From positions 1 through 41,532 of the forward strand of contig CACJYQ010000009.1 in assembly GCA_902597725.1 (NCBI GenBank): a stretch of DNA of 41,532 bases. The letters are read 5' to 3'. Below are positions 3,354 through 8,614 of the stretch, piece after piece. The notes below the pieces were generated by a model that was not told where the DNA came from, did no database searches, and saw only the letters and a list, made by a program, of their open reading frames with translations. The stretch's first letter is position 1. Each line of letters begins with the position of its first letter. Both the position numbers and the translations under genes were made by a program. This DNA is from an uncultured Pelagibacteraceae bacterium. GTDB taxonomy: Bacteria > Pseudomonadota > Alphaproteobacteria > Pelagibacterales > Pelagibacteraceae.

Positions 3354-4493
3354 ATGAAATTTGAAGCCTCAAAGGCTGCGGCCTTAAATAGATTAAATAA
3401 TTTTGTAGAAAAAAATCTTTCTGAATATTCCAAACTAAGAAATTTTGATTTTGGTCCAGAAAAGAGATCAAATATATCTGGTTTATCTCCATATATTACT
3501 CATGGAGTTATCAACGAGAAAGAAGTTATTGAAAAATCACTTAGCAAGTTTTCTTTTTCAAAAAATGAAAAATTCATTCAAGAAGTTTTGTGGCGAACAT
3601 ATTGGAAGGGTTGGTTAGAATTACGACCAAACGTTTGGACAGATTACTTAGTTGAGCTAAATAAAATTCGAGAAGAATATAAAGATAACCAAAATTACAA
3701 AAATGCAATAGATGGAAAAACCAATATTGAATGTTTTAATTTTTGGGTAACAGAGCTTAAAGAAAATAATTATTTACATAATCATACTAGAATGTGGTTT
3801 GCTAGTATTTGGATTTTTACATTAGAATTACCCTGGCAATTAGGAGCAGAATTTTTTATGCAACATCTTTACGATGGTGACTCTGCATCTAATACTCTTG
3901 GTTGGAGATGGGTAGCTGGAATTCAAACACAAGGAAAACACTATTTAGCGAGCGAGTGGAATATTAAAAAATTCACTAATAATAGATTTAATAATATTAA
4001 ATTAAACGAAAACGCTCCTCCAAAAGTTTCTGAAAAAACTTACTCAATAGTTAAACAAGATTTTAGCAATAAAAATATAGATGATGAAAATCTTTTTATT
4101 TTTGAAAATAGTTTATCATTTGAAACCACAGATTTTCAAAATCATAAATTTAAAAAAATTTACATAATTTCAAATAAAAATGAAAATAGATCTATCAAAC
4201 TAAGTGAAAAAGTTATTAAATTTAAAGCTCTTTTAGTAGATGATCAAAAACAAAGATTAGAAAATAATTCTATCACTTGTGAAGTGGTAGACATAAGTGA
4301 GATTAAAAATATAAACGAAAAAATTATAGCGTTATATCCAACAGTCGGTGAAAACCTGGATTATTTAAATTTAAATAATTTAAAAATAGATTTTTTATAT
4401 AGAAAACTCGATCAATATTCATGGCAGTATTGTAATAAAGGTTTTTTTAATTTTAAAAATTATATTCCTAAAATAATTACAACTTTTAATTAA
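3354..4493 (+). CDS. Photolyase/cryptochrome-like protein with the FAD domain at the N terminus
   Basis: 379 residues. Residues 1-215 match the all-helical FAD-binding domain of DNA photolyases: SGLSPYITHG (42-51), EVLWRTYWKGW (77-87), HNHTRMWFASIW (142-153) and DGDSASNTLGWRWVAG (174-189). The Rossmann-like antenna domain that normally precedes it is absent. Instead, residues 245-379 form a second, poorly conserved region with alternating strand/helix character (LFIFENSLSF, KKIYIIS, KALLVDD, IALYPTVGENLDY). This may be the antenna domain placed after the FAD domain, or an unrelated addition. The protein probably binds FAD; light-driven repair, sensing, or another redox role cannot be decided. 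It converges with the small membrane gene, sharing a 4-base TTAA. Confidence 0.75.
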   Translation: MKFEASKAAALNRLNNFVEKNLSEYSKLRNFDFGPEKRSNISGLSPYITHGVINEKEVIEKSLSKFSFSKNEKFIQEVLWRTYWKGWLELRPNVWTDYLVELNKIREEYKDNQNYKNAIDGKTNIECFNFWVTELKENNYLHNHTRMWFASIWIFTLELPWQLGAEFFMQHLYDGDSASNTLGWRWVAGIQTQGKHYLASEWNIKKFTNNRFNNIKLNENAPPKVSEKTYSIVKQDFSNKNIDDENLFIFENSLSFETTDFQNHKFKKIYIISNKNENRSIKLSEKVIKFKALLVDDQKQRLENNSITCEVVDISEIKNINEKIIALYPTVGENLDYLNLNNLKIDFLYRKLDQYSWQYCNKGFFNFKNYIPKIITTFN

Positions 4494-4711
4494 AACCACC
4501 TAAACATCCCGATAATTCCTGCTGTAGCATAAAAGAATTGCAAAAATAATATTCCTCTGTGACCACCCCTATAGGCCCAAATTCCAATTAAAATTGCGGA
4601 AATAAGTAACAAACAAAAACCAAAAAATTCTATACCAATATTCATAGCTACAAATAATGAATATAGTATTGCAGTTATAACTCCTGCCCATTCAAAAATT
4701 TTATTATTCAT
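4490..4711 (-). CDS. Small membrane protein of unknown function
   Basis: 73 residues. Three hydrophobic stretches are visible (about 8-23, 26-45 and 53-70), separated by a short WAYRGGHRG loop, so the protein is almost wholly membrane-embedded. The compact form and the final GIIGMFRW resemble small PnuC-like or DUF6552-like proteins of alphaproteobacteria, but I cannot assign it. It is the last gene of the minus-strand run that begins with the photolyase at 8614. It starts 5 bases after the stop of the ArfA-like peptide. Its stop shares TTAA with the stop of the convergent gene. Confidence 0.6.
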   Translation of the reverse strand: MNNKIFEWAGVITAILYSLFVAMNIGIEFFGFCLLLISAILIGIWAYRGGHRGILFLQFFYATAGIIGMFRWF

Positions 4712-4716
4712 ACTTT

Positions 4717-4854
4717 TTATTCGTTTTCCAGCTTGAATTTTTTTCTATTATAAATTTTTTTTTTATTTTTTACTATTTTATTTCTGAGCATTGGTGAGCT
4801 TAATAATTTTGCCATTGGATTTTTCTTCTTTAATTTTTTTCTTTTTTTGCTCAT
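4717..4854 (-). CDS. 45-residue basic peptide resembling ribosome-rescue factor ArfA
   Basis: An ATG at 4854 opens a 45-codon frame ending in TAA at 4717. Its first 12 residues are almost all Lys/Arg, and then comes NPMAKLLSSPMLRNKIVKN followed by KKKIYNRKKFK. Placed beside E. coli ArfA from memory (N-A-x-x-A-LL-x-D-P-x-F-R-x-R-V-E-K-N-K-K...Y-x-R-K), about a dozen positions agree: N, LL, P, R, K-N-K-K, Y, R-K. ArfA recruits release factor 2 to ribosomes stalled without a stop codon. The alignment is short and Lys-rich, so chance is possible. The peptide sits between two minus-strand genes (28 bases after one, 5 before the next), which supports real expression. It could instead be an uncharacterised basic ribosome-associated peptide. 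Confidence 0.6.
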   Translation of the reverse strand: MSKKRKKLKKKNPMAKLLSSPMLRNKIVKNKKKIYNRKKFKLENE

Positions 4855-4882: not shown

Positions 4883-5572
4883 TTATCTTGCCAATTTTAT
4901 GAAAATATCACCCATGCCAGCATCTAAATTTTCTAAAGGTGTATTGTTTCTTAAATTACAATACCTACCAGTAACTTGATGGCTTTTAACAAAATCTATT
5001 TCATCTTTTTCACAACTTTTTCCATTATGCAACAAACCTATAACTATTCGATCATCAAGACTATAAACCTCTGATATATTAATTTTTTTACCATCACAAA
5101 AATAATCTTTATTTACTCTGTTTGGAAAATCCTGTTTATCACAAGGGTTTTTGATAGTTAAAACATAAAATTCCTTCAAGCCATCTTTAAATTCATATTT
5201 CATTTTTTGAGTTTCAGAGTACTTCATAAGATCACATGAACATGGAACACAACATCTATAATAATTTCCACAAATTTTTTTTTGAGTTTTAGTTTCTTCA
5301 ATAAATAAAAATTCTGGGTCGCTATTTGGATCAATCAAAGATCCAGAAACCGCGCAGTATAATTTATTAAATTCAATAAAATCTTTATAAGTGATTTTTT
5401 TATCTATAATATATTTAAAAAACTTTGGTCCTGCCGCATTTCTATTTTTATCAGGGAATATTCTTGACCAATCAGTAATAAGCTCCTTGTGATAGTTTTT
5501 TTCTTCAGCGAATGATTTAAGCTGAAATAATATTAAAAATATAATCAAAAAAAGATTTAAAAATTTTTTCAT
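4883..5572 (-). CDS. Cysteine-rich secreted protein of unknown function
   Basis: 229 residues. Residues 1-22 form a signal peptide ending KSFA-E. The mature part contains ten cysteines (73, 101, 107, 108, 111, 113, 144, 159, 187, 205). Five of these cluster within 13 residues in CGNYYRCCVPCSC. Such a cluster could hold disulfides or a metal. I do not recognise the family. The start codon overlaps the stop of the FG-GAP/ASPIC gene by 4 bases (ATGA), so the two secreted proteins are probably made together and may act together outside the inner membrane. The C terminus (DAGMGDIFIKLAR) is soluble. Confidence 0.65.
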   Translation of the reverse strand: MKKFLNLFLIIFLILFQLKSFAEEKNYHKELITDWSRIFPDKNRNAAGPKFFKYIIDKKITYKDFIEFNKLYCAVSGSLIDPNSDPEFLFIEETKTQKKICGNYYRCCVPCSCDLMKYSETQKMKYEFKDGLKEFYVLTIKNPCDKQDFPNRVNKDYFCDGKKINISEVYSLDDRIVIGLLHNGKSCEKDEIDFVKSHQVTGRYCNLRNNTPLENLDAGMGDIFIKLAR

Positions 5573-6999
5573 TTTTGTTTTACAGTAATTGTTTGATTTA
5601 ACTCAGTTACATTGAATAATTTTTTTGTTCCATTGGTCCATTTAATCTCTACTTTAAAATTTTTTTCGTTTTTTCTAATTCCATAATGTGCCACAGGCTC
5701 CATTTGGCATAAGTAACCAGATCCTGCATCAATAGTTTTGGAATGCTTTCTTTTATTTGTTATTAATGTTACCGTAGCTCCTCTCGCCGGGGCACCATAT
5801 TTATTTAATGGTTTAATTCTTAGGTATTTATTTCCTTTGTCAACTTTTGCTTTATACAAAGTTAATGGTTGTTCTTTACTTTCACCACGAGCAACTAACA
5901 ATTCTAAAACTCCGTCATTATCAATATCTGCAACAGCTGCCCCAGTTCCATACCCATTAACTTCGAGACCAACTTGAAAATTTATCTGTTCAAATTTTCC
6001 ATCATCGTTAATACGAAATAATTTATTTGGTTCTGCTATATTGTTCATAAAAACTTCATCAAAACCATCGTTATCAAAATCTGCAGAAATAATTGTTCTA
6101 ATTCTAGAAGGTTTATCAAAATCTTTATTTCCTATGTCTTTAAATTCGTTTTTTTCCAAAACCCAGGCTCTATGATATCCAAGCCAATTACCACTCAGAA
6201 TATCTAATCTGCCTCGGTAATATATGTCTGATAAAGCTGTACCTCTCCCATTTTGGATTGCATCATCTACTCTATAATCAAATGCTACATCTTCAAAATT
6301 TCCATTATTATTTTTATAAAGATAATTTGCTCCCCTCTCATTTGCTGCAAAAATATCTGCTCTATCTGACAAGATATGTCCTGATACCACTGCTCTTCCA
6401 CCAGTGATATTATCAAGATTTAAACTCTGAGCCTTATCTTTAATCAATTCATCTTCAATCTCATAAAATCTGGTTGGGCCTCCGTAATTTGCTACATAGA
6501 CTCCATATTCACCATCTCCCTTTCTATCTACACAAACTACAGATCTTCCTGCTGTTAAATTTAGGTTTTCTTTATTTTTTTCTAATTCGAATAAATCAAA
6601 ATAATTATTATCTTCTATATCTAATAATCTATCTGAATATTTTTTATCCCCACTATATGTATCTGTATTTAGAAAGTAAATTTCTTCAAAGCCATCTTTA
6701 TCGATATCACACGCAGCAACTCCTATAGTTCTTTTTAAAGTATCTGAAAAAATTTTTTGCTGATTTAGATTCTTTAATTTTCCATCCTGAAAAGATAAAG
6801 CCAAGTTAGGATAACCAAATCCTGTTACTAAAAACTCATAATTTCCATCCATATTAAAATCTGTTACTGAGATACCATAGCTGAGCCTTTTTTCATTATT
6901 TTCAATAATTTTTGATAGATCCTCAAAAAATTCTGCACGAGTATTATTTGTAAGAATTACAAAAAAAATTAAAATCAAATATCGAGTAAGATTTTTCAT
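5569..6999 (-). CDS. Secreted FG-GAP/VCBS-repeat protein with C-terminal ASPIC/UnbV domain (CRTAC1-like)
   Basis: 476 residues from the chosen ATG. A signal peptide occupies residues 1-22 (ending NNTRA-E). At least five FG-GAP/VCBS-type repeats follow, each with an acidic Ca-binding-like loop such as DFNMDGNYEF, DIDKDGFEEI, DFDNDGFDEV and DIDNDGVLEL. Together they suggest a seven-bladed beta-propeller. The last 80 residues (NKYLRIKPLNKYGAPARGATV, SGYLCQMEPVAHYGI, VEIKWTNGTKK) are an ASPIC/UnbV domain as in CRTAC1 proteins. The role is unknown; such proteins are extracellular and probably adhesive or carbohydrate-related. The ATG at 6999 overlaps the upstream DUF2256 stop as ATGA, so it is preferred over the ATG at 7014 and the TTG at 7026. 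Confidence 0.85.
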   Translation of the reverse strand: MKNLTRYLILIFFVILTNNTRAEFFEDLSKIIENNEKRLSYGISVTDFNMDGNYEFLVTGFGYPNLALSFQDGKLKNLNQQKIFSDTLKRTIGVAACDIDKDGFEEIYFLNTDTYSGDKKYSDRLLDIEDNNYFDLFELEKNKENLNLTAGRSVVCVDRKGDGEYGVYVANYGGPTRFYEIEDELIKDKAQSLNLDNITGGRAVVSGHILSDRADIFAANERGANYLYKNNNGNFEDVAFDYRVDDAIQNGRGTALSDIYYRGRLDILSGNWLGYHRAWVLEKNEFKDIGNKDFDKPSRIRTIISADFDNDGFDEVFMNNIAEPNKLFRINDDGKFEQINFQVGLEVNGYGTGAAVADIDNDGVLELLVARGESKEQPLTLYKAKVDKGNKYLRIKPLNKYGAPARGATVTLITNKRKHSKTIDAGSGYLCQMEPVAHYGIRKNEKNFKVEIKWTNGTKKLFNVTELNQTITVKQK

Positions 7000-7124
7000 T
7001 TTTTTGATGAACATTTTTTTGAGCAATACTTAACCTTTTCCCAATTGAGTCTCCATTTCCTTCTCCATTTAAATGGTCTTTGACATATTGGACAAACCTT
7101 AATTGGTAAATTTTCTTTTTTCAC
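6996..7124 (-). CDS. DUF2256-family mini-protein (42 residues, zinc-ribbon-like)
   Basis: A GTG at 7124 opens a 42-codon frame ending in TGA at 6996-6998. It reads VCPICQRPFKWRRKW at residues 10-24 and WEKVKYCSKKCSSKK at 28-42. Paired cysteines C11/C14 and C34/C38 frame a basic, Trp-rich middle. This is the full pattern of DUF2256, small proteins often found beside photolyase/cryptochrome genes. The cysteines probably bind zinc. The GTG uses the last base of the photolyase TAG, and the stop overlaps the next ATG as ATGA, so it is wedged exactly between its neighbours. The function is unknown; location suggests a partner of the photolyase-like protein. Confidence 0.85.
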   Translation of the reverse strand: MKKENLPIKVCPICQRPFKWRRKWRLNWEKVKYCSKKCSSKK

Positions 7125-8614
7125 TAAACTGTGTTTTCTTTAATGAATTTATCTGCAGCCGACAAAATTAATTTTTTTCTATCCACTTTCATTTTATCAA
7201 ATATTCTTACCATCATTGAAAGTCTTGGATTTTTTAAAAAAAACTTTCTATTACGATCTATAAATCTCCAATAAAGTCCGTCCATCGTGTTACACCATTC
7301 TCCTTTTTTAAAATCCATCATTTTCATAAAATAACTTGATCCACAAATGTATGGTTTGGTTGCAAAAATTCCCCCGTCACTAAATAACCCCATACCATAA
7401 ACATTGGGTACCATTACCCAATCTGAGGAGTCGACAAACATCTCCATAAACCATTTATAAACAAACACTGGTTTGATCTCACAAAGATTCATGATGTTTG
7501 ATAAAATCATTAATCTTTCAATATGATGAGACCATCCATAATTTAAAGCATTTTTAATTGCGTAATCTAGTGGAGGTAAACCAGTTGTTCCGTCATACCA
7601 TGACTTTTTCATTTTACGATTTTGTTTGAAAAAATTTCCAGTTTCCATTTCATTTGAGTAACTTTGATAAATTCCTCTCATAAATTCTCTCCATCCTATA
7701 ACCTGACGAACATAACCTTCTAGAGAATTTAATCTAATTTTTTTACTCTTATGAAAATCTAAAACTTTTTTGATAATAAATTCAGGTGTGATTAAACCTA
7801 GGTTGATATAAGGACTTAAAGCGCTGTGAAATAAGATATTATCTTTTTGATCTACTGCGTCTTCATAATCACCAAATAAATTAGATTTTTCTTTAATAAA
7901 AAAATTCAATAATTTGACCACATCATTGTGCTCTGTGGCAAACCAAAAATTTTCGGTTGTTCCTGGATGATCTTTAAATAGTTTTTCAATAATGGGTTTT
8001 AATTTTTTTGTATGATTTGTTTCATTAATTTTAGGAAACTTTGGAATAGAAATATTTTTTGGTAACTTATTTCTATTATCTTCATCAAAACTCCATTTAC
8101 CTCCAATAGGATTTCCGTCCGAACCCATTAATATTCCAGATTTCTTTCTCACTTCCTTATAAAAAGTTGCCATGAAAGGTTTTTTTGATTTAGATAAATA
8201 TTGTTTAAATTCGTCTCTTGAGTTCAAAAACATCGGAGTTTGAACGATATTCCATTTGATCTTTTCTTTTTTTACGAAATGATTAATTTTTTTCTCAAAA
8301 AATTTATCCTCGACTTCAAAACTTGAAATCTCTTTTATTTTTTTTGAATTAATTACTTTTTTTAATTTTTTTAAATAATCATCTTTAAATTCTTTATCCT
8401 CAATTTTAAAATATTCTAATTTAAACTTATCTTTTCTGAGGTTTTCCGCATGTGAACGCATTGATGACAAAAAGAGAAGTATCTTATTTTTATGATGTTT
8501 TTCATAAGTACATAATTGATAATCCTCTGCCATAAAAATTAGGTGGTCTTTTTTGAAGCGATCCAAGTATTTTGATGGAAATAATTGATTGCCCAGTATA
8601 AAAAATAACTTCAT
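7124..8614 (-). CDS. Cryptochrome/photolyase of the PhrB (FeS-BCP) type, apparently lacking the Fe-S ligands
   Basis: 496 residues. The N-terminal part (MKLFFILGNQLF, then SSMRSHAENLRK) is the Rossmann-like domain of deoxyribodipyrimidine photolyase-related proteins. The C-terminal part is the FAD domain: HSALSPYINLGLITP (263-277), YVRQVIGWREFMRGIY (301-316), HHIERLMILSN (363-373), WVMVPNVYGMGLFSDGG (399-415) and LYWRF (447-451). PhrB-type enzymes repair (6-4) photoproducts and carry a 4Fe-4S cluster. Here the four ligand positions appear to be P348, K436, E439 and N442, and the intervening loop is about 12 residues shorter. Cysteines C378, C424 and C441 remain but do not fit the ligand spacing. 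It heads a six-gene minus-strand run. Confidence 0.9.
   Translation of the reverse strand: MKLFFILGNQLFPSKYLDRFKKDHLIFMAEDYQLCTYEKHHKNKILLFLSSMRSHAENLRKDKFKLEYFKIEDKEFKDDYLKKLKKVINSKKIKEISSFEVEDKFFEKKINHFVKKEKIKWNIVQTPMFLNSRDEFKQYLSKSKKPFMATFYKEVRKKSGILMGSDGNPIGGKWSFDEDNRNKLPKNISIPKFPKINETNHTKKLKPIIEKLFKDHPGTTENFWFATEHNDVVKLLNFFIKEKSNLFGDYEDAVDQKDNILFHSALSPYINLGLITPEFIIKKVLDFHKSKKIRLNSLEGYVRQVIGWREFMRGIYQSYSNEMETGNFFKQNRKMKKSWYDGTTGLPPLDYAIKNALNYGWSHHIERLMILSNIMNLCEIKPVFVYKWFMEMFVDSSDWVMVPNVYGMGLFSDGGIFATKPYICGSSYFMKMMDFKKGEWCNTMDGLYWRFIDRNRKFFLKNPRLSMMVRIFDKMKVDRKKLILSAADKFIKENTV

Follow-up and report, generated by a model that had tools for sequence, protein, structure and literature searches.

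Published accounts place the ribosome-rescue factor ArfA outside the Alphaproteobacteria. In the passages drawn on here, ArfA is described as confined to a subset of beta- and gammaproteobacteria (PMC8012679), and a 2024 survey reports arfA in Gammaproteobacteria, some Betaproteobacteria and ten species of the Bacillus group, with none in 2,376 alphaproteobacteria (PMC11633108). The survey relied on DNA profiles, a method that may overlook genes of this length. The cited parts of the first account (PMC8012679) also state that the A18T substitution leaves E. coli ArfA inactive, with RF2 not activated, and that 40 residues of the protein are insufficient; those of another (PMC6299226) describe the role of the KGKGS motif and of residue F25. 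The latter source also describes Francisella ArfT, which has no hydrophobic residue at the F25 position and recruits RF1 or RF2. Our search of the literature on ArfA in SAR11, alphaproteobacteria and phages, mostly conducted without full text, found no report of a SAR11 host ArfA. An earlier note on the DNA studied here had expected an ArfA in a streamlined alphaproteobacterium to be new, which agrees with the two distribution papers as far as their cited portions go.

The window analyzed here is a stretch of 41,532 nucleotides from an uncultured Pelagibacteraceae bacterium, whose own genome assembly (820 kb) is 75% complete. Based on sequence comparison, we propose that a 45-codon open reading frame (ORF) in this window probably encodes a divergent ArfA-type ribosome-rescue factor, an RF2-recruiting back-up of tmRNA.

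A conserved 45-codon gene and its neighborhood

The ORF begins with ATG, ends with TAA (Table 1) and encodes the peptide MSKKRKKLKKKNPMAKLLSSPMLRNKIVKNKKKIYNRKKFKLENE. We searched genome contigs with a profile (A3) constructed from the window form, its relatives in the neighboring family f2 and one g6 sequence. Orthologs were recovered at 39 loci, where 34-45 of the 45 residues align with 85-100% identity, all from other Pelagibacteraceae or Pelagibacterales records, one of them a Candidatus Pelagibacter ubique. Over the 34-codon conserved part, pooled pS is 0.383 and pN 0.031 (pN/pS 0.08), the median pairwise dN/dS is 0.044, and variable columns at codon positions 1, 2 and 3 number 11, 7 and 23. 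These values derive from the window and 38 of the 39 orthologous loci (39 of 40 sequences, 34 of them distinct at the DNA level); locus L130 was omitted because its C-terminal end is out of frame, which inflated pN. Lysine-rich composition is, on general reasoning, possible in chance frames of such genomes, and the ORF might thus be non-coding or decaying sequence in an A+T-rich gap. The codon conservation refutes this explanation and leaves it with a negligible probability. The frame that the earlier note had picked out, proposing conservation across Pelagibacterales and between strains as checks, is a genuine conserved gene under strong purifying selection.

An AlphaFold2 model of the peptide alone (mean pLDDT 86.8, pTM 0.40) contains helices at residues 13-18, 21-24 and 31-44. 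Helix 13-18 would agree with the helix of ArfA, which is weak evidence given that the model is of a lone lysine-rich peptide.

Table 1. Features around the 45-codon gene in the window
Feature	Coordinates	Strand	Basis or context
379-aa protein, sole Pfam match photolyase FAD-binding domain	3354..4493	+	Convergent; downstream at 39/39 orthologous loci
73-aa hydrophobic ORF	4490..4711	-	Starts 5 nt past the ArfA-like stop; downstream at 39/39 orthologous loci
Putative ArfA-like 45-aa gene, KGKGS-less form	4717..4854	-	ORF, alignment to ArfA, orthologs, codon statistics, profile comparison
229-aa protein without assigned function, upstream	4883..5572	-	Within 3 kb at 30/39 orthologous loci
FG-GAP / UnbV-ASPIC repeat protein	5569..7026	-	Pfam
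DUF2256 42-aa protein (PF10013)	6996..7124	-	Pfam
DPRP photolyase-related protein (PF04244 + FAD_binding_7)	7124..8614	-	Pfam

The gene belongs to a minus-strand run in the order DPRP photolyase-related protein, DUF2256 protein, FG-GAP/UnbV protein, 229-aa protein, 45-aa ORF and 73-aa ORF, and lies 28 nt past the 229-aa ORF. Judged from strand and spacing, the DPRP gene is possibly the head of an operon that includes the 45-aa ORF. DUF2256 genes occur within 3 kb of 26 of the 39 orthologous loci. The DUF2256 gene of the window overlaps the end of the DPRP gene, and the pair recurs within 3 kb at 23 of the 39 loci. The convergent 379-aa protein, which adjoins the DPRP operon, has no antenna-domain match.

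The presence of the photolyase-like gene had suggested a link between translation rescue and UV-damaged mRNA. A DPRP gene is indeed close by in three lineages (23/39 window-type loci, 6/6 g6 loci and 2/3 g286 loci). The link is nevertheless weak as a general rule, because no photolyase was found at most of the canonical, KGKG-bearing SAR11 loci that we read. At most of the canonical loci fetched, arfA instead neighbors a response-regulator-like gene and a convergent gene that is usually PfkB. For most loci read, we therefore rejected a photolyase operon as the typical setting.

Relationship to ArfA and DUF7230

Curated profiles do not recognize the peptide as ArfA. PF03889, the family against which the earlier note had proposed a profile search, gave no match to the peptide at E <= 1 and none in its own genome at E <= 10, so that the curated cut-off of 25.5 bits is not reached. 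NCBIfam likewise returned no ArfA match, and the sole Pfam line for the peptide, DUF4322, stays below its cut-off (E 0.056). The tail reads NKKKIYNRKK and lacks the KGKGS motif. By strict membership we do not file the peptide as ArfA, since it has neither the curated score nor KGKGS.

Direct comparisons point to ArfA. A phmmer search of 177,635 PDB sequences yielded two matches at E <= 10, both of them ArfA chains and both weak (E 0.53); the resemblance to E. coli ArfA described in the earlier note was thus reproduced. We also searched 2,722 ORFs meant as decoys, to which E. coli ArfA and 36 canonical SAR11 copies had been added. The top match was a PF03889-positive alphaproteobacterial ArfA (dec542), which a filter miss had placed among the decoys, and E. 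coli ArfA ranked third with 14.1 bits. The best of 200 shuffles of the peptide scored 8.3 bits with E. coli ArfA and 11.2 bits with the canonical copies, compared with 14.5 for the real peptide. In a separate search, matches inside long frames (285, 203, 461 aa and similar) were taken as chance and dropped. Aligned by eye, N12, L18, P21 and R24 of the peptide pair with N14, L20, P23 and R26 of E. coli ArfA, L23 falls at the F25 position, KNKK at 29-32 pairs with residues 31-34, and Y35 and R37 pair with Y39 and R41.

KGKGS is also absent from the relatives of the window form in genus g284 and family f2. We compared five sets (ArfA, DUF7230, g284, f2 and window type) with each other and with decoys, for which 2,721 ORFs of the window and of the fetched loci served once dec542 had been taken out. 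The ArfA profile placed all six window-type members above every decoy (best 23.6 versus 6.8 bits), as well as 4/4 DUF7230, 7/7 g284 and 6/6 f2 members above the best decoy. The reverse direction was weaker, the window-type profile lifting 13 of 47 ArfA and two of four DUF7230 members above the best decoy. Profile-profile alignment with hhalign linked the window type to ArfA with 95.6% probability (E 1.2e-8) and to g284 with 96.8%, and linked f2 and g284 to ArfA with 97.2% and 97.0%. A profile restricted to the KGKGS-less relatives (A2) gave ten PDB matches, six to ArfA (best E 0.16) and four to the selenium transferase SelA (best E 0.22). The PDB, phmmer and profile comparisons together support the relationship to ArfA, and on these grounds the peptide is homologous to SAR11 ArfA and, through the canonical copies, to E. 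coli ArfA.

The second family in this comparison, DUF7230 (PF23876; cut-off 27 bits), is one for which our literature search found no paper naming it. It matches 6 of 372 alphaproteobacteria at E <= 0.01, four of them over the cut-off. The g284 form L078 scores 26.6 bits (6.4e-6) and the f2 form L029 16.8 bits, both below the cut-off, and neither matches ArfA. With the Pfam profiles, the f2 form L010 and the window-type form L006 match neither family, and for the window peptide the DUF7230 cut-off is not reached, with no match to the peptide itself or in its own genome at E <= 0.01. The earlier note had held that the lack of a profile match, together with a better match to another small basic family, would argue against an ArfA-like peptide. 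The first was found for PF03889; the second was seen in the sister form L078, which matches DUF7230 rather than ArfA. This objection is resolved in part, because the DUF7230 and ArfA sets are themselves linked by profile (97.8%, E 1.2e-12). We read ArfA, DUF7230, g284, f2 and the window type as one superfamily with two tail types, in which the window form resembles the KGKGS-less branch that includes DUF7230.

An alternative is that the peptide is a DUF7230-type small basic protein of ArfA ancestry that does another job, such as binding rRNA or other RNA, and recruits no release factor. The near-threshold match of the g284 sister form, the nearly equal best scores of the window type with the DUF7230 and ArfA profiles (22.2 and 23.6 bits) and the missing KGKGS channel motif are all consistent with such a protein. 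We nevertheless consider it unlikely, given the strength of the DUF7230-ArfA link, the preference of hhalign for ArfA over DUF7230 (86.4%) with the window form, and the lack of co-occurrence of the two tail types in the genomes searched, described below. The ArfA link also offers ribosome rescue as a hypothesis for the function of DUF7230.

Canonical ArfA in Pelagibacteraceae and on viral contigs

At E <= 0.1, profile A3 matched 128 of 147 Pelagibacteraceae genomes, and 48 of the 53 that are near-complete. Among the weakest matches, a few lie inside long frames. Best matches were read in 67 of the 128 genomes (loci L062-L091 and L131-L170, three genomes having been fetched twice) and comprise 54 canonical copies with KGKG, 10 of the g284 type and three of the window type. 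These counts show that the ArfA family is present across Pelagibacteraceae and that canonical ArfA is commoner there than the window form. All 30 canonical SAR11 sequences that make up profile A4 match PF03889 at E <= 0.01, an E threshold rather than the curated cut-off, and in the PDB A4 matches ArfA chains only (best E 1.1e-6). N14, L20, R41 and KGKGS are invariant in the 30 sequences and the F25 position is Y or F; the A18 position of canonical copies is K, R or Q, unlike in E. coli.

The canonical gene mostly follows a response-regulator-like gene, with a 4-nt overlap in 15 of 35 cases measured (the choice of start being uncertain), and precedes a convergent, mostly PfkB, gene, its stop lying within -20 to +14 nt (34 measured). 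At L131-L168, the canonical arfA stop overlaps or abuts that of the convergent gene, reminiscent of the convergent genes arfA and mscL in E. coli.

From one genome to another, the window and canonical forms appear to substitute for each other. The canonical arfA locus was found in seven of nine window-type genomes, each time without room for arfA, and was not located in the other two (G043 and G019). Searches with A4 returned nothing below E 0.01 in the nine window-type genomes, none of which has a credible canonical match, or in four genomes with an empty locus; in 10/10 g284 genomes only the g284 locus itself fell below that value. None of the 19 KGKGS-less genomes searched with A4 yielded a KGKGS form as well, as expected for one function. 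A second weak A3 match (E 0.01-0.1) occurs in seven genomes, in six of them in long or stop-broken frames and in G557 in a 40-aa frame. A4 missed the window form itself in genome searches at E <= 0.1, which we count against close membership in ArfA. Five of the 53 near-complete family genomes have no A3 match, so the ArfA-like gene seems dispensable; four of the five are Pelagibacter, in which the canonical locus is empty or nearly so.

Relatives of the canonical profile are also encoded on at least 253 stretches of viral contigs. The 80 stretches fetched (L186-L265) encode 56 distinct proteins, and KGKG is present in 80/80 copies, a count that is partly predetermined, as KGKG was itself included in one of the scan patterns. 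Examples of viral KGKGS-type ORFs are L216:3989-4132 and L194:3992-4099, and some viral frames extend to an N-terminal stretch of the PGKWDGxSR type. In L194 and L216, a T4-type clamp-loader gene immediately precedes the ArfA copy. Elsewhere the copy has an endolysin gene at a distance of about 0.4 kb (L187), a major head protein gene at 1.3 kb (L203) or a terminase gene at 2 kb (L201). Several of these ArfA-bearing contigs are clearly phage, which suggests that phages in the sea supply a rescue factor of their own.

Phage ArfA is also mentioned in the cited parts of two papers, which name gp30 of pelagiphage HTVC027P as ArfA (PMC12753301) and report a Citromicrobium phage with ArfA (PMC8953757). 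HTVC027P gp30 (L299:15768-15944), a hypothetical protein in its record, scores 20.2 bits to PF03889, below the cut-off. A motif scan of 3.9-5.5 kb stretches of HTVC010P, Mosig, HTVC008M, Bellamy and HTVC202P detected no KGKG-type short ORF, and a tblastn search of phages with a 35-aa query was likewise without matches, possibly owing to the masking of lysine-rich queries by the low-complexity filter. HTVC010P contains an unannotated lysine-rich frame of ~34 codons (L294, about 3364-3465) at the gap where the related L187 has its ArfA ORF.

Rescue systems in SAR11 and the proposed function

An alphaproteobacterial tmRNA is present in the genome of the window, and tmRNA was found in all 14 SAR11 genomes tested, including four without arfA. 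The search for arfB that the earlier note had proposed indicates that ArfB is essentially undetected in the family: PF00472 gives at most two matches in 98 of 99 family genomes, and a third, ArfB-like match occurs in G528 alone, among the matches listed. Such third matches, scoring 60-82 bits, do show up in 12 of 31 alphaproteobacteria, which makes the absence in SAR11 meaningful. The class as a whole gave no support for ArfA and ArfB being complementary, with a third PF00472 match in 6/15 genomes that have an A4 match and in 6/16 without. Four near-complete Pelagibacter genomes (G417, G526, G535 and G574) have tmRNA and neither a recognizable ArfA nor a third PF00472 match, and are candidates for another back-up or none. 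In genomes with the window form, tmRNA is present and neither ArfB nor canonical arfA was detected. With the ArfA family in Pelagibacteraceae and ArfB essentially undetected, the rescue back-up is directly testable there.

In ArfA, F25 is the docking residue for a pocket of RF2 formed by V198 and F217. By predicted pairing, this position is leucine in the window form. The RF2 of the same genome has I at V198 and F at F217 of E. coli RF2, and the residue at the F217 position is A in two sequences of SAR11 RF1 (positions assigned by eye). The replacement of F25 and the loss of KGKGS might suggest rescue through RF1, or through RF1 and RF2 alike, as the published description of Francisella ArfT, itself without a hydrophobic F25, would allow. 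This seems improbable to us, as leucine is still hydrophobic and the RF2 of the genome keeps the pocket residues.

Our preferred reading is an ArfA-type factor acting through RF2. The basic C-terminal tail (KNKKKIYNRKK) would enter the mRNA channel that stands empty when a ribosome has stalled at a non-stop mRNA end, and the NPMAKLL helix and SPMLRNKIV stretch would dock and activate RF2. RF2 would then hydrolyze the peptidyl-tRNA, as a back-up to tmRNA. Since the ORF stops at an ordinary TAA shortly beyond the basic tail, the control known for E. coli, with ArfA made from a non-stop mRNA and repressed by trans-translation, probably does not apply.

Evidence for this function includes the exclusively ArfA matches of the peptide in the PDB, the profile links, the canonical locus without room for arfA and the retained RF2 pocket, and we judge it likely on balance. 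Against it stand the lack of a Pfam or NCBIfam ArfA match, the failure of A4 to find the window form, the closeness of SelA to ArfA in the A2 search, the missing KGKGS, the leucine at F25, the K, R or Q at the canonical A18 position, the five near-complete genomes without a match and the absence of ArfB complementarity across the class. The peptide most likely works like ArfA, as a divergent variant.

Few bacterial groups on Earth are as abundant as SAR11. A broader reading, which we regard as evenly balanced, is that ArfA has a second, KGKGS-less branch comprising the window peptide and DUF7230, and that SAR11 lineages swap the two branches between genomic sites. Such swapping would imply that a shorter basic loop can recognize the empty mRNA channel, and SAR11 and their phages would be the main holders of ArfA in the ocean.

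Among known systems, DUF7230 shares with the window peptide an N-P-x-A-x-x-L start, a shortened loop without KGKGS and a tail of the Y-x-R-K type, and differs in that the peptide itself has no DUF7230 match. ArfT, by its description in the cited part of PMC6299226, is likewise a small release-factor-dependent rescue factor with a basic tail, and is set apart from the proposed ArfA-type function by the F25 position and by recruitment of RF1 as well. Canonical SAR11 ArfA belongs to the same bacterial family and size class as the window form, and differs in its KGKG, its aromatic residue at F25 (30/30 of A4) and its response-regulator-like/PfkB setting. Compared with E. coli ArfA, the window peptide lacks KGKGS and the hydrophobic C-terminal extension, has a loop two residues shorter and L for F25, stays below the curated Pfam cut-off and ends at a normal stop codon. 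The two have in common their small size, the N-x-x-x-x-L-L helix start, P-x-[FL]-R and a basic tail with K-N-K-K and Y-x-R-K, and the genome of the window matches the E. coli setting in having tmRNA and an RF2 with the ArfA pocket.
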